NCBI GenBank assembly: GCA_005524015.1
Contig: SULG01000004.1
Span: 1-64,000, forward strand
Origin: Candidatus Jettenia ecosi
GTDB taxonomy: Bacteria; Planctomycetota; Brocadiia; Brocadiales; Brocadiaceae
Direction: 5' to 3'
Length of the DNA stretch: 64,000 nt
How positions within the stretch are numbered: the first letter of the stretch is position 1; each line of letters opens with the position of its first letter. Under the pieces are notes generated by a model, which was given only the letters and a program-made list of their open reading frames with translations, had not been told where the DNA came from and did no database searches. This document shows positions 23,725 through 41,906 of the stretch, piece after piece. Both the position numbers and the translations under genes were made by a program.

Positions 23725-24381
23725 ATGAAATATGCCTTATTCGGTTTCATCTTCTTCCTGTTCACGTTATCATCATCGTTTGCTTCAGAATTACTCAAGA
23801 ATGGAGATTTTGAAACGGGAGATACCACGGGTTGGAAATACTGGGAAACTTCCCCTTGGGATGGTGATGGCGCCCCTGTAGAATTCCCCACTCATATAAC
23901 CATTGCAATTCCCGGTACCATCGGAACCCCCCTGCCCCCTGCCATAAGTGGATTTTTTGCTTTGGCGCAACAAGTTGACTCGAATGGAACGGCCCGAGGA
24001 GGTCTTTATCAGGAAATTAAGGTAATAGTCAATACTCCTTATATCTTAACAGGCCGTATGGCGTTTTATGGCGATGATCTCGGAGACGCAACGATTATAG
24101 GAATCCTTGACGGTACCTGGAATCCGGCGCTTGCTTTTACAGCAATAAATAAACATACTATCAGTGGGAATAGTATCTCACCATGGATTGAATTCTCTCT
24201 TACCATTATTCCTACCAAGGATATAATTACGGTTTTTACCGAAACACGGCAAGATTGGACACATGGACATGTGGCAGGCTGGTATGATGGACTTAGTCTG
24301 CAGCCAACTCTGGAGCCAACAAAATTTTTTAAATCACCACATCGTGAGAATCATTCTTTACAGAAAGAAAAGCAACCTTAA
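23725..24381 (+). CDS. secreted protein with a carbohydrate-binding-like fold
   Basis: 218 residues. A clear signal peptide (MKYALFGFIFFLFTLSSSFA) is followed by LLKNGDFETGDTTGWKYW, the opening of many jelly-roll carbohydrate-binding or PEP-CTERM-type surface proteins. The remainder is beta-rich (GGLYQEIKVIVNTPYILTGRMAFYGDD) and ends in a polar tail; no PEP-CTERM sorting signal is seen. The function is unknown beyond an exported, possibly glycan-binding protein. It lies 31 bp after the PDZ-TPR gene and may be the last gene of that unit. Confidence 0.7.
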   Translation: MKYALFGFIFFLFTLSSSFASELLKNGDFETGDTTGWKYWETSPWDGDGAPVEFPTHITIAIPGTIGTPLPPAISGFFALAQQVDSNGTARGGLYQEIKVIVNTPYILTGRMAFYGDDLGDATIIGILDGTWNPALAFTAINKHTISGNSISPWIEFSLTIIPTKDIITVFTETRQDWTHGHVAGWYDGLSLQPTLEPTKFFKSPHRENHSLQKEKQP

Positions 24382-27020: not shown

Positions 27021-28724
27021 TTATATATCCCGCATCTTTATTTTATATTCTTCAATTTTCCGGTAAAAAGTACTCCTGCTCATGCCTAACAGGCGAGCTG
27101 CCTTAACCCTGCTCCATGCAGTTTTTTCAAGCGCCTGAAGAATTGCCTGTGATTCTTCAATAGTTATATCTTCTCCAGAAGTAGTCTTAACTTCAAGAAG
27201 TCCCTTAAGAATACCTGGTAAGTAATCTACGGTAATGGTACTCTGAGGGCAAAGGATAAATGCATGTTCAAGGGTATGCTCCAGTTCTCTGACATTACCG
27301 GGCCATTGATATTCCATAAATATTTTTTGAACATCGGAAGAAACTGCTACGATTTCCTTATTTATCTTCTTATTGAGCTTGTTCAAAAAATGATTAACCA
27401 GGAGCGGTATATCCTCCCGACGATCCCTTAATGGTGGTAAATTCACTTCCACTACCTTCAGACGGTAATAAAGATCTTCACGGAACCTTCTTTGCCGTAT
27501 TTTTTCCTTTAAATTTTGATTAGTAGCAGCAACAATCCGGACATCAATCCGGATAGGCGTTGAGTCTCCAACCTTCTCAAATTCTTTTTCCTGCAATACC
27601 CTTAAGAGCTGTAATTGCATCCGGGGTGATATGTCCCCTATTTCATCCAAAAAAATAGTACCACCATCTGCCTTTTGAAACCTGCCGATCCTATCCTGAA
27701 CAGCGCCGGTAAAAGCGCCTTTCACGTGCCCAAAGAGTTCGCTCTCAAGCAAATTCTGTGATAAAGCTGCACAGTTTACATTGATAAATGGTTTATGACT
27801 ACGTTCACTTTTAAGATGCAAAGCCTCAGCAACCAATCCCTTGCCTGTTCCACTTTCCCCGGTAATCAAGACAGTGGTTTGAATATTGGAGAGACTTTCT
27901 ATAAGAGAGTAAACTGTCTGCATCTTTTCACTTTTTCCCATGATAGTATGGAATTGTTTGCGCTCTTTCTTATCTCTCGCAAGATCTGCCAAATATGTCT
28001 CATCACTCACTACCAACACTACTCCGGAGAATATGCCTTTGTTACTAAGCAGAGGATAGGTAGTAATAGAGACAACCTGTTGCGGGCGAAATTTATGTCT
28101 GCATTCAATATGATACACTTCCGCGGGCTGTTTTTTATGAATGGCTTCTTCAATACTAACGAGACATTGACCACTACAATGCTTCGAGAGAGAACCTAAA
28201 GGCACTCCGATTACTTCACGAGAGAAATTACATATATCTTTAGCCGCTTCGTTAATCTCAAGTACAAGCAATTTTTGATCCACCGTAATAATTGCATCCT
28301 TTACGCTATTAAAGATAGCCTTAAGATTTAAGCGGTAATTCTCCTTTTCATCTACCAACGCTTTGTGCTGTAATGCCATCTTTGTAACCCTTAACAAGGT
28401 ATCTTTGAGTACAGGTTTAGAAATATAGTCGAAAGCTCCCAACCGAAGTGCATCCGAAGCAGTTTCAATGTTAGGAACCCCGGTAATCATAATAACAGGA
28501 GAATTCATATTCCTTTTCTTAACTTCCCTTAAAAAATCAATCCCTGTCTTACCTTCCAGGAAAATGTCTGCAAATATCAAATCGAAATCGGATGCATCAA
28601 TCATCGTTAAAGCCTCATGGTAATCTTTAGCAATTACTACTTCATATCCCCAATCTAAAAGAAAACTTTTGAGAGTAAACCGAATATTCTCTTCGTCATC
28701 GATTATAAGAATTCTTGTCCTCAT
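27021..28724 (-). CDS. NtrC-family sigma-54 activator with REC and PAS domains
   Basis: 567 residues. The N-terminal receiver (1-120) has the acidic pair Asp9-Asp10, phospho-acceptor Asp53 (FADIFLEG) and a KP switch motif (ISKPVLK). A PAS domain follows (about 130-250), then the AAA+ domain with Walker A GESGTGKG (289-296), the sigma-54 loop GAFTGA, Walker B GGTIFLDEIGD, and a Fis-type HTH (SRVKAARLLGMSRSTFYRKI). GAFTGA means it should activate sigma-54 promoters. Its partner is the histidine kinase 120 bp upstream. ATG preceded by AAGGGGGG. Confidence 0.96.
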   Translation of the reverse strand: MRTRILIIDDEENIRFTLKSFLLDWGYEVVIAKDYHEALTMIDASDFDLIFADIFLEGKTGIDFLREVKKRNMNSPVIMITGVPNIETASDALRLGAFDYISKPVLKDTLLRVTKMALQHKALVDEKENYRLNLKAIFNSVKDAIITVDQKLLVLEINEAAKDICNFSREVIGVPLGSLSKHCSGQCLVSIEEAIHKKQPAEVYHIECRHKFRPQQVVSITTYPLLSNKGIFSGVVLVVSDETYLADLARDKKERKQFHTIMGKSEKMQTVYSLIESLSNIQTTVLITGESGTGKGLVAEALHLKSERSHKPFINVNCAALSQNLLESELFGHVKGAFTGAVQDRIGRFQKADGGTIFLDEIGDISPRMQLQLLRVLQEKEFEKVGDSTPIRIDVRIVAATNQNLKEKIRQRRFREDLYYRLKVVEVNLPPLRDRREDIPLLVNHFLNKLNKKINKEIVAVSSDVQKIFMEYQWPGNVRELEHTLEHAFILCPQSTITVDYLPGILKGLLEVKTTSGEDITIEESQAILQALEKTAWSRVKAARLLGMSRSTFYRKIEEYKIKMRDI

Positions 28725-28809
28725 GATCCCCCCTTACAGATATTAATGAGGTTGGGTTTTAAAAGACGAAACTCAACGACTTTTCTTTTTACCCATCCCT
28801 CAATGGTTA

Positions 28810-28830
28810 GAGACGCAAATCTTGTGTCTC
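28810..28830. repeat. short GAGACGCAA inverted repeat
   Basis: GAGACGCAAATCTTGTGTCTC, a near-perfect 9-bp stem with a tiny loop, in the spacer between the kinase and activator genes. Related copies occur at 40574 and 40642, so this is a dispersed element. Confidence 0.6.
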
Positions 28831-28843
28831 CACAATTCTGGTT

Positions 28844-31800
28844 CTACTGTTTTAATGTAAATATCGGCAAAATTACTGCGACTTCAGTAAATTCTCCCTC
28901 GATACTATGAATCATAATCTTGCCACCATGCTCATTGATAATACCATGACTAATACTTAACCCTAATCCAGTGCCCCTACCTCTTGGTTTAAGGGTAAAA
29001 AAAGGATCCATTACTTTCTCTATACTATTGGCAGGTATACCGGTACCATGATCATAAAAGATCATTTTCAGACAGGGAAGACTATTTATGGTTATTTCTT
29101 TACCTGAGATCTCAAGGAGTTTATCATCATGCGCCTCCGGATATTTCTGATTTAAGGCATACCGTGCATTACTGATAATATTCAAAAAAACTTGCTGAAT
29201 TTGTTGTGGATGCACAGTTATTTCTGGAAAATTGTGGGGAATATCTAATCGTATTTTGATCCCCTCTTTTCGTAACTGTACCTCCGACAGAGTTAAGGTA
29301 TCAGACAATATTTCATGGACACTGACGATACTTTTCTTTTCTTTTCTATCTCCGGATCTGGCAAAAGACAGGAGGCTGCTTACTATGTTAGCGATACGTT
29401 TACCTTCTTTGATAATCCTGTTTGCGATATCTTTTTCACTGCTTTCCTCGCTGCTTTTATCGAATAGTATCTGAGCACAGTTAATAACACCGGTTATGGG
29501 ATTATTGATCTCATGAGCCACACCCGCCGCCAGTTCACCCAGCGCTACCAGGTGCCTTGAGCGCACAGATTCCATCTGCAAAGCGACCTTCTCGGTAATA
29601 TCCCAAAAAACACCTAAGATGCCAATAACGTTACCTTTCTCTTCTTTTATAGGGGTTTTCACGGTATGCACAATACATTCACGCCCATCCTTAATGTATT
29701 TTTCTTCTATATCTTCCGTTTGGCCGGATTTCATGATTCGTTTATCATCTGTCCGGTATTTCTTAACAAACACTTCAGGAAAAAAATCATTATCTGTCTT
29801 TCCGGCAATTTCGTCTGGTTTAATATGTAAATCTCTGGCATAATTCTCATTACAAGAAACATACACCAAATCTCTATCTTTGTAAAATATCCTTTGTGGT
29901 AGATTTTCAAGGAGCATTCGGTACTTGCTTTCACTCATACGTAGTGCTTTTTCTGCCTGCTTACGATCTATGCCTAACGCAATGATATCTGCTACAGAAG
30001 CCAAAGCCTTGTTGGTAAATTCTGTAAGGGGTTTGCGTAAAAATATCGCAACAACTCCAACCAAATTGTTCCCAATAATCAGGGGATATCCGGCAAACGA
30101 AACCATTTTCTCCCGTTCCGCCCATCCCTTATCACTAATATAGGGATCATCGACAATAGAGTTCGTTAGATGTGGCTGACGCTCTGAGGCAATACGGCCA
30201 ATTTTGAGTTTCCCAACAGGTACCCGGCTGTGAGAACCATTTATATGAGTATGTAGCCCCGCGCTGGCTTGCAACTCTAGCATATTTTCCTTTTCATTCA
30301 GTGTCCAGATGCGAGCAAGCGCTGCATCCAGATTGTGAACTATAGCTTCCGTGCAGTATCGTAAAACATCATACAAGGTATTACCCTGGCTGAGCGCAAC
30401 ACTAACATCTTTGATAAATGATATCAGACGGAGCCGTTCTACCAATGCCTGTGTTCGCTTTTGTTCAGTAATATCAATCCCAAAAAAAATCGTTTCCTTG
30501 ATTTTACCGTGTTCCCGTACCTCCGTATTCTGCCATGATATATATCGTTTTTTACCTGACTTTGTAAAAATAGGATTCTCAAAGGTCTTTGGCAACTGTC
30601 CGTTTTTTTGCCAATTCGTAAACTCTTGCCAAAAATAGGGAATACGGTCTTTTGGCACAATTGTCTCAAACCAATTTTTCCCTACGATCTCAGCTTTTTT
30701 ATATGCAGTAATTTTCTCTGCTGCCTCATTAAATATCCGAATAGTACCTGCAATATCCAATCCTATAACCATTACGTTTGCTGTCTCTATAAGATTCTCA
30801 GCATAATTCTTTGCACACCGTAGTTCATCAACCATTCGCTTCTGTTCGGTAATATCGGCTAGTATACCAACGATACCAGCAATGTTACCATGAGAATCAC
30901 AGAGGGGCGCCGTTGAAAGACTGATATCAACCTGAGTCCCGTCCCGTTTCTGACGACGTAATTCCAAACCTATAAATGATTCCCCGCGTAATACCCGGTT
31001 ACGCAGAAAACGGAATTCATCGTGTTTGCCTTTTAGCATGACAGGAAGGGAATGATTCAGCAACTCCTTTTCTTTCCAGCCGAACATAGACTCCGCAGAA
31101 GGATTCCACATCTTAATATGCCCATAAGAGTCAAGAACAATGATAGCCACGGGAGATGCCGATATAAGAGCGCGAAGGGTTTGATTCGTTTTTCGCAGTA
31201 TATCCTCCATCCGTCTTCTTTCGGTAACATCTCTGGCAATCCCTATAACTCCGATGGTATTCCCGTTCTCATCCCTTAGAGGAAGATTCTTATGTTCGCA
31301 CAATATGTTGGTGTTCTTGAAATAAAGTTCATATTGAGGACTTTCCCCTTCCATTGTTCTTGTGTAAGCATCCATTGCCTTTTTCAGGTTCTCTTTATCA
31401 AAAAGCAGCGCGAATGACTTTCCCAGAAAATCCTCTGGCCGATGGCCAGTAAGTTTTTCAAACATATGATTTACAAAGACTACATTTCCTTTATCATCAC
31501 AAATATACGGAAGGTCGGTCATTTGTGAGATTACTATTTCATACTTTTTTAACTCCTTTTTTGCCCTTTTATGCTCTGCAATCTCTCCTTTCAGAAGCTC
31601 ATTAGTTTTTAACAGCTCAACGGTACGCTCCAGAACACGGACTTCCAGTTTATCATATGCCTTTTGTAGCATCTCTGCTTTTCGCCTGTGCTCTAAAGCA
31701 TTCACAAATATTTCACTAATTATTTTCAGCATCGTAATATCTTGTTCTATCCATGTTTTTTCTATCCGTACCGAATCAAACCCCAAAAACCCAACAAGAG

Positions 31801-33052
31801 ATCCACCATAAATCATGGGAACGATGATAAATGACCGGACTGCCTGCAGTTCTTGCAACTCTTTTTCCGCTTTGGCACAAACTGGCAGATCATCTGGCCG
31901 GGGAACATGGACAACCTCAAATCGTTTTAGTTTCTCCATCTCCCGGGAAAGACGCTCAACGAAAACTTCCTTACGATCTTTCATCTGTGGCTCAGTCCCT
32001 TCAGCACACCACACATGGGTATTATCGATAATCTCTTCACTATTGTTAGAATAGAGGCAGACATAACTGCGGTCAACTTCCAGGAATTTTCCTATTGTTT
32101 CCAACGCCCGGTTTATTCCTGTATCAACCTCATTTGGCGCAAGGTTTATGAAGCTTGTCGATATAGCTGCAATAAGTTCTTCCAATTTTACCTGACGCTG
32201 CAATAATTTTGCTGTATATTTATGCTCAACAACCTCCTGTTTTAGATCAGTATAAGATTTTTCAAGCGCCGTTGTCATTTGATTGAAATTTATGGATAAT
32301 TGTCCAATTTCATCTCGGGAACGGATGTTTACTTTGCGGGTGAGATTGCCTTTGGCTATATCCAGGGTAATGCTTGTTAAATGCTGTAATGGTGAAATTA
32401 TATATCTGGTAAGAAAGAAGGTAATACATATACCGCCAATAATAATACTTAAACCCAGGGGGATAATAATATATACCATAATATGCTGAGTGTTCTCATG
32501 TATTTTATGGGTAGATAAACCAATCTGTACAAAACCTAATATCCGTTGTTTTGTCTCTGTAACGATTTTATCTTCACTTAAAATCTGTGTGGCAAAAACC
32601 TCCTCTGAGAACGTCTTCTCAAAAACAGGGATTGAGAAATCAAAAAATTCCTCATCTAAGGAAGTACTGCTATGGCGGATAAATAATATATCTGGATTTT
32701 GATGGTCCTCTCTGACAGGAAGCTCTTCAATATTAAGATTAATTCGGGAAGATTTTTCTTCAACAATAACCTTTTGTATATCTGATACACGCAAATAACC
32801 AATTTCCCCTTCAGCATCAAGCGCCTTTATTCTTTTAATAGGAGCGTCTAAGAATGCAGGTTGCGTATAACTCAATGCATGTTTGACCTCGTCATCCTGC
32901 GCAAGCAACATAACAAGAGAGGTGCCTAATTTTCTCAGGGCATTGTCTTGCTGTCTCTTTAAATGGATTAAAAAGAACAAGCAACTCAATGTTCCAATGA
33001 TAATTATCAGTGTACTTATAAAAAGGATAAGTTTTGTACGGATACTTATCAT
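28844..33052 (-). CDS. membrane multi-PAS/GAF sensor histidine kinase
   Basis: 1402 residues. Order: transmembrane helix 1 (about 7-28), periplasmic sensor region, helix 2 (about 193-214), HAMP (about 214-268), GAF (about 290-460), a coiled coil, PAS1 (YICDDKGNVVFVNHMFEKL), PAS2 (IIVLDSYGHIKMWNPSAES), PAS3 (VIGLDIAGTIRIFNEAAEK), GAF2, PAS4 (FYKDRDLVYVSCNENYA), HisKA with phospho-acceptor His1180 (GVAHEINNPITG) and HATPase_c (N-box NIISNARYAL, G-boxes DHGTGIPA and GRGTGLGLS). It almost certainly phosphorylates the sigma-54 activator just downstream. The AtoS/NtrB-style NEINNP H-box is typical of such pairs. The stimulus is unknown. Confidence 0.96.
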   Translation of the reverse strand: MISIRTKLILFISTLIIIIGTLSCLFFLIHLKRQQDNALRKLGTSLVMLLAQDDEVKHALSYTQPAFLDAPIKRIKALDAEGEIGYLRVSDIQKVIVEEKSSRINLNIEELPVREDHQNPDILFIRHSSTSLDEEFFDFSIPVFEKTFSEEVFATQILSEDKIVTETKQRILGFVQIGLSTHKIHENTQHIMVYIIIPLGLSIIIGGICITFFLTRYIISPLQHLTSITLDIAKGNLTRKVNIRSRDEIGQLSINFNQMTTALEKSYTDLKQEVVEHKYTAKLLQRQVKLEELIAAISTSFINLAPNEVDTGINRALETIGKFLEVDRSYVCLYSNNSEEIIDNTHVWCAEGTEPQMKDRKEVFVERLSREMEKLKRFEVVHVPRPDDLPVCAKAEKELQELQAVRSFIIVPMIYGGSLVGFLGFDSVRIEKTWIEQDITMLKIISEIFVNALEHRRKAEMLQKAYDKLEVRVLERTVELLKTNELLKGEIAEHKRAKKELKKYEIVISQMTDLPYICDDKGNVVFVNHMFEKLTGHRPEDFLGKSFALLFDKENLKKAMDAYTRTMEGESPQYELYFKNTNILCEHKNLPLRDENGNTIGVIGIARDVTERRRMEDILRKTNQTLRALISASPVAIIVLDSYGHIKMWNPSAESMFGWKEKELLNHSLPVMLKGKHDEFRFLRNRVLRGESFIGLELRRQKRDGTQVDISLSTAPLCDSHGNIAGIVGILADITEQKRMVDELRCAKNYAENLIETANVMVIGLDIAGTIRIFNEAAEKITAYKKAEIVGKNWFETIVPKDRIPYFWQEFTNWQKNGQLPKTFENPIFTKSGKKRYISWQNTEVREHGKIKETIFFGIDITEQKRTQALVERLRLISFIKDVSVALSQGNTLYDVLRYCTEAIVHNLDAALARIWTLNEKENMLELQASAGLHTHINGSHSRVPVGKLKIGRIASERQPHLTNSIVDDPYISDKGWAEREKMVSFAGYPLIIGNNLVGVVAIFLRKPLTEFTNKALASVADIIALGIDRKQAEKALRMSESKYRMLLENLPQRIFYKDRDLVYVSCNENYARDLHIKPDEIAGKTDNDFFPEVFVKKYRTDDKRIMKSGQTEDIEEKYIKDGRECIVHTVKTPIKEEKGNVIGILGVFWDITEKVALQMESVRSRHLVALGELAAGVAHEINNPITGVINCAQILFDKSSEESSEKDIANRIIKEGKRIANIVSSLLSFARSGDRKEKKSIVSVHEILSDTLTLSEVQLRKEGIKIRLDIPHNFPEITVHPQQIQQVFLNIISNARYALNQKYPEAHDDKLLEISGKEITINSLPCLKMIFYDHGTGIPANSIEKVMDPFFTLKPRGRGTGLGLSISHGIINEHGGKIMIHSIEGEFTEVAVILPIFTLKQ

Positions 33053-35244: not shown

Positions 35245-37281
35245 ATGGAAAACATACAAATAAATATTAATCACGTCTGGGTTATGGCAGCAGCATGTAT
35301 GGTGTTTTTCATGCAGCTGGGGTTCACCTCCTATGAAGCAGGTTTTTCACAATCCAAGAATGCTATCAGCGCTTCTATTAGAAATCTCGTAGTATTTCTC
35401 ATATCCTCACTGGTATTTTACGCTGTCGGGTTTGGATTTATGTTTGGGATAAGTTGCATGGGCTGGATTGGAGTAAACCATTTCTTTACCAGTGGCATTC
35501 AGGAACATCCTGGTAATTTAGGTTATACCTTTTTCTTTTTTCAACTGGTCTTTTCCGCCACAGCATCTACCATAATGACCGGAGCTATAGCAGAACGCTC
35601 CTGTTTTGTTCCTAATGTTGCAGGCACGGTATTCATGGTAGCCATCGTCTATCCGATTTTCGGCCATTGGGCATGGGGAAGCCTTTTCCATTCAGAACAA
35701 TACGGTTGGCTGGAAAAATTAGGGTTTATTGATTTTGCAGGATCTACTCTGGTGCATTCGATTGGGGGTTGGTTCGCCCTTGCGGGGGCAGTTGCTGTAG
35801 GACCAAGAAATGGCAAGTATAATCCTGATGGGTCTTCAAATCCCATGGGGCTACATAATATTCCGATGGTAACTTTGGGTACCTTCTTCCTCTGGTTTGG
35901 CTGGTTTGGCTTTAACGGAGGAAGTCTTCTGCGGGCAAGCGCCGAGATTAGCCTTGTCATTACCAACACGAACCTGGCAGCTGCCACAGCGGGAATTTCT
36001 GCGCTCCTCTTTACGTATGCAAAAGAAAAGAGACTGAACGCCGGGAAACTCTTTACAGCCATACTGGCTGGCCTGGTAGCAATAACAGCAGGCTCTAGCA
36101 GGGTAAATCCTAACGGCGCCATCTGTATCGGTTTCATTGCTGGTATAGGAGCGATCTTAGCTCAGGATTTTATTGAAAAGATATTAAAGGTTGACGACCC
36201 CGTCTCTGCCATTGCAGTTCACGGAGTCGGGGGCGCTATAGGCACCCTCTGTGTTGCATCTTTTGCTGAAAAATCGACGCTAGCGGTGGAAAGTGGCAGC
36301 CGGTTACATCAACTTGGTATACAAGCTGCAGGCATTGCGGTTGCCTTCGTGTGGTCTTTCGGGTTAGGAACGCTCTTTTTTTGGTGTCTAAAAAAAATCG
36401 TAACTATCCGTGTAAGTCCTGAAGAAGAAAAAAGAGGACTTAATGTTGCCGAATACGAAGATGTGGCTTCGTGGCTTGATTTCATACGTATTACCAGACT
36501 TCAGGACTTAAACACCCTGCTTGAAAAGAGAGTTGCAGAAAGAACAGAGGAACTTCAAAAGACAAATATTGCGCTCGATAAGGCCAATAAATTAAAATCA
36601 GAATTCTTAGCAACCATGTCGCATGAACTTCGTACCCCATTGAATGCTATCATCGGCTTCGCTGAGGTTTTAAGGGACGAAATTACCGGGGCTCTTAACG
36701 AAGAACAAAAAGAATACATCAATGATATCCACGGTAGCGGTGAACACTTACTCAATATGATTAATAGCATCCTCGACCTTTCAAAAATTGAAGCTGGCAA
36801 ATTAGAACTTCACTATGAGGTGTTCTCTATAGAAGAGGCTATCAATGAGGCGCTGAATATGATCATGGGGCTTTCTCTGAAGAAAGGCATATCCCTGAAG
36901 ACTCTTATTCAAAAAGATATTCCCTCTTTAACAGCAGACCGATTGAAATTCAAGCAAATTATGTTTAATCTATTATCCAATGCCATTAAATTTACCCCGG
37001 AAAGTGGCGCGATTTCAATCTCTGCAGATCTCTTAGATCAGCATATCCAGTTTGCCATAAGTGATACCGGCATAGGAATCAAATCAGAAGATATGGATAA
37101 GATATTCCAGACGTTCCGTCAACTAGATGCCTCATATGCACGCCATTATGAGGGGGCAGGCCTTGGCCTGGCACTCACAAAACGTCTGGTTGAATTACAC
37201 GGCGGTAAGATATGGGTAAAGAGTATCTATGGAAAGGGAAGCACATTCACCTTCACGTTACCACAAAATCCATCGCATTAG
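35245..37281 (+). CDS. ammonium transporter-histidine kinase fusion (Amt5-like sensor)
   Basis: 678 residues. Residues 1-390 are an Amt/Mep/Rh domain with eleven predicted helices. The twin pore histidines are present: His171 (TLVHSIGGWFAL) and His326 (AVHGVGGAIGTL), as are GTFFLWFGWFGFNGG and FMQLGFTSYEAG. A short helical linker (about 420-450) joins a HisKA domain with His460 (TMSHELRTPLNAIIGF) and HATPase_c (N-box NLLSNAIKFTPE, DTGIGIKS, GAGLGLALTKRL). This is the architecture of Ks-Amt5, described as an ammonium sensor rather than a transporter. There is no receiver domain; the response regulator is unknown. No clear ribosome site. Convergent, four bases overlapping, with the nitroreductase gene. 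Confidence 0.97.
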   Translation: MENIQININHVWVMAAACMVFFMQLGFTSYEAGFSQSKNAISASIRNLVVFLISSLVFYAVGFGFMFGISCMGWIGVNHFFTSGIQEHPGNLGYTFFFFQLVFSATASTIMTGAIAERSCFVPNVAGTVFMVAIVYPIFGHWAWGSLFHSEQYGWLEKLGFIDFAGSTLVHSIGGWFALAGAVAVGPRNGKYNPDGSSNPMGLHNIPMVTLGTFFLWFGWFGFNGGSLLRASAEISLVITNTNLAAATAGISALLFTYAKEKRLNAGKLFTAILAGLVAITAGSSRVNPNGAICIGFIAGIGAILAQDFIEKILKVDDPVSAIAVHGVGGAIGTLCVASFAEKSTLAVESGSRLHQLGIQAAGIAVAFVWSFGLGTLFFWCLKKIVTIRVSPEEEKRGLNVAEYEDVASWLDFIRITRLQDLNTLLEKRVAERTEELQKTNIALDKANKLKSEFLATMSHELRTPLNAIIGFAEVLRDEITGALNEEQKEYINDIHGSGEHLLNMINSILDLSKIEAGKLELHYEVFSIEEAINEALNMIMGLSLKKGISLKTLIQKDIPSLTADRLKFKQIMFNLLSNAIKFTPESGAISISADLLDQHIQFAISDTGIGIKSEDMDKIFQTFRQLDASYARHYEGAGLGLALTKRLVELHGGKIWVKSIYGKGSTFTFTLPQNPSH

Positions 37282-38837: not shown

Positions 38838-40403
38838 ATGTTTATTAAAAAAAGAGAGATCATTCTTACCATTAATAAAATCATCTTCTCTAGCCTTGAT
38901 ATACGGGAAGTTTACCAAACAATGGGTAAGGAACTTTTAAAGGTAATTGATTTCGACCGTATGAGTGTTACTCTTATTAGTGAAAATAACAATTTATATG
39001 AAACCTTTGTGCTCTCAAAGGATTACGGATATACAGACCTCAAAGAGGGTGTATTATATCCGATGGAAGGAAGTTTAATGAAAAGAGTAGTTCAATTTCG
39101 TGAACCGGTACTTGTTGATGATACATCAAAAGGCCGATTTCTTACCGATGCTGTACTATTTAAAGAGAACATTCGCTCAAGATTGGGATTTCCCCTTGAT
39201 TACAAAGGGCGCATAATCGGCAGCGTAAATTTTGGGAGTAAGCGAAAAGATTATTACACAAGAAAGCATATTGATTTTCTTTCGCAAATCGCGCCTCAGT
39301 TAGCTATGGCAATCGAAAATACAAGACTTTTCAACAAAATTAAAGAAGCGGAGAAGAAGTACAGGACAGTTATCGAAAACTCGCCGGATATTATCTTTGA
39401 GTGTATGAAAGATGGGAATTTTTCTCTTATGAGCCCTTCCGTGGAAGGAATAACAGGTTATCCGCTCCATGAATTTTATGATAATCGGGGTTACGGACTC
39501 GCCCTTTGTCATCCGGAAGACCAGGAAAGAGTACACCATGAAATACTCCAGGTATTACAGGGCGTCAATAGAAATTTAATGAATCTGGAGTTTCGGATCA
39601 TTCATAAGCAAGGTCAGATTGTCTGGCTCTCTCTTGAGATACTTCCCATTATTCAGGAAAATACGATCATTGGCATTGAAGGTTTTTGTCGTAATATTAC
39701 CGAAAGAAAACGATTAGAGGAGCTAAAAGATATTCTCATCCGGGATGTTACCCATGAACTCAAGACGCCTGTCGCTAAGATAGAAATGGCTCTTGATATG
39801 TTTCAACGTTCTGTTTTAGCTGGAAATAAAGGTATGCCGGAAAGGGGCTATCAAATCAATAAAATTCTTCGAAATAATATCAGGCGATTAAAGAACATAA
39901 TTAAAAACATACTTGATATATCTAAGTTAGAATCGGGAACGGAATCGTTAAAATTATCTGATATCTCATTGGTTGAATTAGTAAAAACATCTGTTAATGA
40001 ACTGAAAGATACGGCCGATCAAAAAGAAAATATCCTTCTGTATCAAATACCTTCTGACATTCCCATAATTAAAGCAGACCGGGATAAGATACTTCATTTG
40101 ATAACCCATCTGGTGGACAATGCTATAAAATTTACGGAACGTGGAAAAATCAACATATCGGCACGAAAGCTCCCTGATACCGTGGAGTTAACCATAGAAG
40201 ATACTGGCAGAGGTTTGGATGAAGGGGTACAAAAACGCGTATTTGAAAAATTTTATAAAGAAATACCCTCAGCCTATGGGTCAGGAATAGGTCTTGCCAT
40301 TTGTAAAAACATTGTACAGATGCATAAAGGAAATATCTGGGTAGAATCTGAAGGCAAGGGAAAAGGATCACGGTTCAAATTTATCTTACCAATCAAATCA
40401 TAA
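38838..40403 (+). CDS. GAF-PAS sensor histidine kinase
   Basis: 521 residues, cytoplasmic (no transmembrane helix seen). A GAF domain (about 1-165), PAS domain (about 175-290, MKDGNFSLMSPSVEGITGYPLHEF), HisKA with His306 (DVTHELKTPVAK) and HATPase_c (HLVDNAIKFTERGK, DTGRGLDE, GSGIGLAICKNIV). The H-box is the common HELKTP type. It begins 12 bp after the macro-domain gene, suggesting co-transcription. A stand-alone receiver is encoded 1.1 kb further on, in the same direction, and is a possible partner. Confidence 0.95.
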   Translation: MFIKKREIILTINKIIFSSLDIREVYQTMGKELLKVIDFDRMSVTLISENNNLYETFVLSKDYGYTDLKEGVLYPMEGSLMKRVVQFREPVLVDDTSKGRFLTDAVLFKENIRSRLGFPLDYKGRIIGSVNFGSKRKDYYTRKHIDFLSQIAPQLAMAIENTRLFNKIKEAEKKYRTVIENSPDIIFECMKDGNFSLMSPSVEGITGYPLHEFYDNRGYGLALCHPEDQERVHHEILQVLQGVNRNLMNLEFRIIHKQGQIVWLSLEILPIIQENTIIGIEGFCRNITERKRLEELKDILIRDVTHELKTPVAKIEMALDMFQRSVLAGNKGMPERGYQINKILRNNIRRLKNIIKNILDISKLESGTESLKLSDISLVELVKTSVNELKDTADQKENILLYQIPSDIPIIKADRDKILHLITHLVDNAIKFTERGKINISARKLPDTVELTIEDTGRGLDEGVQKRVFEKFYKEIPSAYGSGIGLAICKNIVQMHKGNIWVESEGKGKGSRFKFILPIKS

Positions 40404-41537: not shown

Positions 41538-41906
41538 ATGAAGGAATTACTAATTGTAGAAGATGACTCGGAAATGCAAGAATTTTATAAAGATATGCTT
41601 CAAGGGGAACAGTTTACCGTTACCCTCGCTTCAAATGCTGATGATGGACTCAAAAAAATAAAAGAAAATACGTATGATATGGTAATACTTGATATTTTAA
41701 TGGAAGGCGTTACAGGAGACAGACTATTTGCTTTACTCAGAAAGGACAGCCGATACAGAAATGTACCGGTTATTATGGCTTCTGTATTAGAGGAAAAGGC
41801 TTACCGGTGTTTCCAGGCATTAGGAAATATTTCATTTTTAGAAAAACCTTTTAACAAAGAAAGACTTTTGAGTGAAATAACAAAAAGGCTCGATAATTCC
41901 AAATAA
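41538..41906 (+). CDS. stand-alone receiver-domain response regulator
   Basis: 122 residues, one REC domain and no output domain. Asp9-Asp10 (VEDD), phospho-acceptor Asp52 (VILDILMEG), and the LEKPFNKE switch Lys are present. It probably relays or competes for phosphate, as CheY- or Spo0F-like proteins do. AAAGGAG precedes the ATG by about 11 bases. Candidate upstream kinases in the window are the GAF-PAS kinase and the Amt-kinase; neither carries its own receiver. Confidence 0.92.
   Translation: MKELLIVEDDSEMQEFYKDMLQGEQFTVTLASNADDGLKKIKENTYDMVILDILMEGVTGDRLFALLRKDSRYRNVPVIMASVLEEKAYRCFQALGNISFLEKPFNKERLLSEITKRLDNSK

Follow-up and report, generated by a model that had tools for sequence, protein, structure and literature searches.

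A putative Amt5-type ammonium sensor kinase of 'Candidatus Jettenia ecosi' with a changed ion site, and a candidate receiver for its signal

Does a kinase-fused ammonium transporter sense ammonium in the same way wherever it occurs, and to which regulator does it pass its phosphoryl group? These questions are raised by a gene in a 64,000-nucleotide stretch of the genome of 'Candidatus Jettenia ecosi' (the window), the product of which resembles Ks-Amt5 of 'Ca. Kuenenia stuttgartiensis', the best-characterised transporter turned ammonium-sensing kinase and one whose mechanism rests on a two-ion site in a single crystal structure. Ks-Amt5 keeps the filter (W144, S227), the Phe gate (F103, F223) and the His pair (H171, H326) of the family; its pore is plugged by F27, Y30 and F34, and two NH4+ lie behind the pore with Q24, E31, N47, D50, T51, T109 and T112 as ligands, E31 and D50 compensating the charge (PMC5764959). 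NH4+ is bound and not translocated, and autophosphorylation in vitro is NH4+-dependent, while the response regulator was described as 'yet to be identified' (PMC5764959) and was still cited as unidentified in 2026 (PMC12918730). A literature search, conducted mostly outside subscription journals, returned no paper on ortholog variation at D50 or on a candidate regulator of Amt5.

The original prediction, an intact Amt domain with both pore histidines joined to a complete HisKA/HATPase module in the architecture of Ks-Amt5, holds throughout (Table 1). The 678-aa protein matches the Pfam models Ammonium_transp, HisKA and HATPase_c with E values of 1e-110, 4e-25 and 1e-30, respectively, and scores above the cut-off of TIGR00836 (amt). 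The match to PF00909 covers positions 1-398 of the 399 in the model, corresponding to a complete Amt/Rh ammonium transporter fold with twin pore histidines, filter and Phe gate, and the kinase carries, besides H460, all three ATP-binding motifs: N-box NLLSNA (575), G1 DTGIGI (607) and G2 GAGLGL (637). Neither a HAMP nor a PAS domain was detected between Amt and HisKA in a Pfam scan of the protein, and a linker similar to that in this position is found in an Amt-coiled-coil protein on contig C146 of the same genome. The open reading frames of the window and their Pfam matches also bear out the earlier statement that no response regulator adjoins the gene. Promoter and terminator scans around the gene gave scores close to chance level, and an antisense open reading frame at 35649-36137 was set aside as most likely spurious on one test, its overlap with the conserved Amt5 gene.

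Table 1. Features of the putative ammonium sensor locus, in window positions.
Feature	Positions	Strand	Remarks
Upstream co-directional gene, 467 aa	33757..35160	+	84 nt before Amt5; two likely membrane helices
Putative Amt5-type ammonium sensor histidine kinase (P0001)	35245..37281	+	678 aa, ATG to stop
Amt (ammonium transporter) domain, residues 11-408	35275..36468	+	W144, S227, F103, F223, H171, H326 present
Codons 50-51, GTA TTT	35392..35397	+	V50 F51 (Ks-Amt5: D50 T51)
Helical linker, residues 409-450, Amt to kinase	36469..36594	+	From sequence and Pfam
HisKA / DHp domain, residues 451-518	36595..36798	+	Phospho-acceptor H460 at 36622-36624
HATPase_c / CA domain, residues 565-675	36937..37269	+	N, G1, G2 boxes

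The relationship to Ks-Amt5 (kust_3690 / KSMBR1_3866) goes beyond shared architecture, for the two proteins are orthologs of an Amt-kinase type that is already known. Among solved structures the Amt part of Ks-Amt5 (6EU6) matches best, at 655.7 bits and free of gaps over residues 1-403, followed by 8QJ3 and 8QPF at 292 bits, and the Amt tree places all Amt5 proteins in one well-supported clade (100/99). The two proteins are colinear (678 aa in the window, 679 aa in Kuenenia) and both have the direct linker and H460; the kinase core of the Kuenenia-type ortholog is about 67% identical to that of the window, whereas its locus (L134) is without the upstream and downstream neighbours of the window gene. 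The window genome (3.86 Mb in 223 contigs, with eight Amt matches) contains the hydrazine synthase alpha marker PF18582, which is absent from 14 control genomes. An Amt-HisKA-HATPase ortholog, in one case truncated by a contig end, is present in 28 of the 33 genomes of the family; among the remainder, one (G003) has a gene broken by stops and four lack Amt5, three of these being less complete. Purifying selection on the gene is strong, with dN/dS of about 0.10 in both the Amt and the kinase domain when compared with the orthologs of two other genomes of the genus. A member of another family (G381; locus L157, G381:C4) has an Amt5 that is 78% identical to that of the window and nested among the orthologs of genus g3, which suggests a recent transfer or a misbinned contig.

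Alignment to Ks-Amt5, proposed earlier as a check on the Phe gate and pore lining, reveals both continuity and change. The filter, F103 and F223, and the His pair are intact; the plug residues F27, Y30 and F34 are all kept; loop 5 (19 residues, G186-N205) has the same length in both proteins, with no gap in the alignment; and ligands Q24, E31, N47, T109 and T112 are retained. Unlike in Ks-Amt5, the remaining two of the seven published ligands are substituted, D50 by valine and T51 by phenylalanine, and because both further genomes of the genus have identical codons, sequencing error is unlikely to be the cause. The ion contacts of 2.2-2.4 Å quoted for 6EU6 seem short for NH4+, which lies about 2.8-3.0 Å from oxygen, and nearer to the Na+-O distance. 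Because of the two substitutions the sensing chemistry of Ks-Amt5 is not simply transferable to the window protein, and they may indicate that this site has ceased to bind ammonium. The ammonium-sensing role claimed for the protein therefore fares unevenly, in that the pore and kinase motifs behind it are kept and two residues of the Ks-Amt5 site are not. The window Amt5 is likely to be an ammonium sensor.

The substitution is part of a wider pattern. Across 29 ortholog rows, two of which are identical, position 50 is V in 14, E in 10, D in three, and L and I in one each, and position 51 is T in 15 and F in 14, while Q24, E31, N47, T109, the filter tryptophan, the Phe gate and the His pair are present in all 29. 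The three D50 proteins come from two Kuenenia-type genomes and one genome of a neighbouring genus; a third genome of the Kuenenia-type genus has V50. In the Amt tree the proteins with E50 F51 form one clade of 10, and the D50 T51 proteins are nested among those with V50 T51, which make up another large set. Since a single acidic residue, E31, remains in V50 orthologs, one ion or weaker binding would be expected in them, and for the window genus an ion stoichiometry or affinity that differs from that of the Kuenenia two-ion site is mildly favoured by the alignment.

The explanation that we hold to be probable as a whole combines an Amt5 ortholog, an altered ion site and a receiver encoded on contig C6. 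A trimeric Amt module, probably no longer used for uptake, would bind external NH4+, which would enter through the W144/S227 filter and, in the window genus, would have only the five retained ligands to hold it behind the pore, as one cation or more weakly, in place of the two ions of Kuenenia. Binding would set the level of H460 autophosphorylation in the fused kinase, from which the phosphoryl group would most likely pass to the single-domain receiver G000:C6:19073-19447; this receiver may be shared with the adjoining Tll0287-type hybrid kinase, and perhaps also with a protoglobin hybrid kinase.

Two other accounts of the site can be weighed against this one. The mechanism of Kuenenia might operate unchanged, with two NH4+ and with water or backbone contacts, for example, able to stand in for D50 and T51, and indeed five of the seven ligands are kept in all or nearly all of the 29 orthologs and E50 retains the charge in 10 of them. 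Such an account is nonetheless unlikely, as it leaves E31 the sole acid for two cations wherever V, L or I stands at position 50 (in the window genus, in the large genus g3 and elsewhere), and it was E31 together with D50 that was named as the charge compensation (PMC5764959). Still less probable is a loss of ammonium sensing in the window genus, by which the protein would have become a constitutive kinase, turned to another signal or regained transport. The disappearance of D50 and T51 would agree with such a loss, as would the expression of Kuenenia Amt5, which is low and unchanged under ammonium or nitrite limitation (PMC7438415), but the selection on both domains, the retention of Y30, filter, gate and His pair, and the fact that F51 is the common residue of stand-alone Amts all speak against it.

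Seen against other Amts, the altered reading of the site gains a context. Among 68 stand-alone Amts, which were picked by similarity to the window Amt domain and so sample the nearer subfamily in a biased way, D50 occurs in 52, E31 in 62, N47 in 54, Q24 in 47 and T109 in 57, and the plug residues F27 and F34 in 66 and 49, respectively. All five residues Q24, E31, N47, D50 and T109 are present in each of the 25 Amts that a HAMP-like linker joins to other outputs; in the kinase-fused Amts from Bacillota and Fusobacteriota position 50 is T or A. Y30 follows a different distribution, being present in 28 of 29 Amt5 proteins and four of five Amt-HisKA_3 proteins, with V, L, M or other residues in the stand-alone and HAMP-like sets. 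That the site appeared confined to sensors in 2018 is explained by the distant Af-Amt1, which lacks its residues in the alignment; judged from the present sequences, the published two-ion site is neither specific to sensors nor conserved among them.

Several other proteins combine an Amt domain with a C-terminal extension or output. The structures 8QJ3, 8QJ4 and 8QPF ('Ammonium transporter', 644-661 aa) are, like the window protein, Amts with such an extension, and differ from it in keeping D50 and in having two of the plug residues changed, to F30 and N34. The Amt-HisKA_3 kinases of Bacillota and Fusobacteriota are also direct fusions of Amt and kinase, like the window protein without D50, and differ from it in their HisKA_3 (NarX/DesK class) domain. 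The gene overlaps that of a NarL-type response regulator at all five loci (L041:6866-9437, L042:9926-13996, L046:9971-13867, L048:9992-13850 and L054:10001-13868) and is followed by a stand-alone amt gene at four, an arrangement with the appearance of ammonium two-component operons. Amt domains are fused to many further outputs, among them MCPsignal (L045, L069, L143), SpoIIE (L084), GGDEF-EAL (L068), HisKA_2 (L148) and PAS-HisKA-REC (L144), several by way of a HAMP-like linker, and the MCP fusions suggest ammonium chemoreceptors. A second, split system that resembles an ammonium sensor is found in the window genome (L138:384-5222, on contig C146) and at L155:480-7200 and L156:1312-8926. Its Amt has an Amt5-like linker and a coiled-coil end and no kinase domain, and the kinase, of about 1060 aa with Tll0287, PAS, GAF and HisKA domains, is encoded separately, within about 12 nt downstream. 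An NtrC-type sigma-54 regulator comes next in two cases, the Kuenenia-type and G353 loci, and in Kuenenia there is a weakly PII-like gene as well; the literature gives Kuenenia amtb_1 a kinase domain, and the open frame seen here is without one.

The gene immediately upstream of Amt5 is at most a possible accessory. Its family adjoins Amt5 on the same strand, usually at less than 100 nt, in 14 of the 21 loci read; at the remaining loci it was not found, except as remnants in G022 and in the Kuenenia-type genome. With linkage so limited and decay in some lineages, the gene was rejected as an obligate partner. Weak Pfam matches to PilZ and PLD occur in two members each. An RxxxR-like motif that precedes the PilZ-like part in several relatives is lost in the window genus, and the family members of genus g11 are without the whole PilZ-like part. 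No relative of the protein was found in the PDB, and structure prediction for two sequences gave a mean pLDDT of 39. Farther upstream, the gene at 23725-24381 resembles family F2, whose members in other genera immediately precede the Amt5 locus. The window genus differs in having, between that gene and the Amt5 locus, a sigma-54 regulator together with a 1402-aa PAS kinase on the opposite strand (27021-33052), which suggests an insertion or rearrangement.

Which receiver serves Amt5 is best approached from two genomes of another family in the same order, G364 and G401, in which an Amt-HisKA-HATPase gene of like architecture (Amt 58-59% identical to that of the window, with D50 F51 in G364) is, unlike the window gene, directly followed by a gene for a single-domain receiver. 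The G364 receiver begins 3 nt 3' of its Amt-kinase (L139), and its G401 counterpart, 59% identical, comes just after the Amt-kinase there. Nearly every anammox genome has one clear homolog of the G364 receiver, at 46-52% identity; in the window genome this is the C6 receiver, which scores 125 bits, the second-best receiver reaching 70. Its gene is flanked by those for an 821-aa hybrid kinase (Tll0287, HAMP, HisKA, HATPase and two receivers) and a 247-aa RR-PAS protein. Of the approximately 22 loci read for this receiver class, most of which are related by descent, all but one have the gene of a kinase with an Amt5-like core immediately upstream of the receiver. These kinases have four architectures (821 aa at most loci, 1310 aa at two, 994 aa at one, and the Amt-kinases at two); the exception is L177, where the stretch around the receiver yielded no kinase.

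The kinase cores point in the same direction. Among 53 kinase candidates from a search of the window genome, the cores closest to that of Amt5 belong to the 821-aa kinase (61% identity, 319 bits) and to a protoglobin hybrid kinase on contig C46 (62%, 290 bits), with a drop to 139 bits for the third. Amt5 and the 821-aa kinase have in common, without a single difference, the stretch HELRTPLNAIIGFAEVLRD, which runs from the phospho-acceptor histidine along helix 1. The protoglobin kinase (L206:6081-8150) also has two receivers, and its kinship with Amt5 may reflect a convergence of heme-gas and ammonium signals. On the linkage in G364 and G401 and the kinship of the kinase cores, the C6 receiver is the likeliest partner, and we tentatively propose it as the main one for Amt5, shared with the neighbouring kinase. 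Counting against this pairing, G014 (96% complete) has a receiver of the class and no Amt5, and the anammox homologs, with only 46-52% identity to the G364 receiver, adjoin another kinase and may serve that kinase alone. In the kinase tree the Amt5 core does not group specifically with the Amt-kinase cores of G364 and G401, so the fusion may have arisen twice.

Other acceptors lie close at hand. The phosphoryl group of Amt5 might instead reach the built-in receivers of the 821-aa or protoglobin kinases, whose cores are so similar to that of Amt5, or the RR-PAS protein encoded beside the C6 receiver, although the Amt-kinases of G364 and G401 adjoin a single-domain receiver alone, with no RR-PAS gene following, and this makes such a route rather doubtful. 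The receiver at 41538-41906, suggested earlier as a phosphotransfer partner, lies 4.3 kb downstream of Amt5 in a linkage kept in eight loci of several genera, yet it is very improbable as the cognate regulator, since it falls outside the receiver class that accompanies Amt5-like cores and elsewhere follows, by about 23 nt in genomes such as L123, a homolog of the GAF-PAS kinase at 38838, the core of which is just 37% like that of Amt5. Between receiver and GAF-PAS kinase there is a glyoxalase gene in the window genus; the receiver probably belongs with that kinase.

The window Amt5 is thus a variant of the known Ks-Amt5 type, so called because D50 and T51 of the published site are absent from it. 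Natural variation among D, E, V, L and I at position 50 offers a ready mutational series for the binding site, and the C6 receiver gives the question of the Amt5 partner one concrete candidate. A broader and more speculative reading, which we put forward as a possibility of lower likelihood, is that sensing by Amt5 proteins is independent of the D50 two-ion site, this being an old feature of the Amt subfamily that stand-alone Amts keep and kinase-fused Amts tend to lose, with Y30 as the mark of kinase fusion, and that Amt5, the Tll0287-type kinase and the protoglobin kinase, with one shared core, may converge on one single-domain receiver. If so, ammonium and heme-based signals would be integrated in anammox bacteria, in which the control exerted by ammonium is relevant both to their physiology and to the removal of nitrogen from wastewater.
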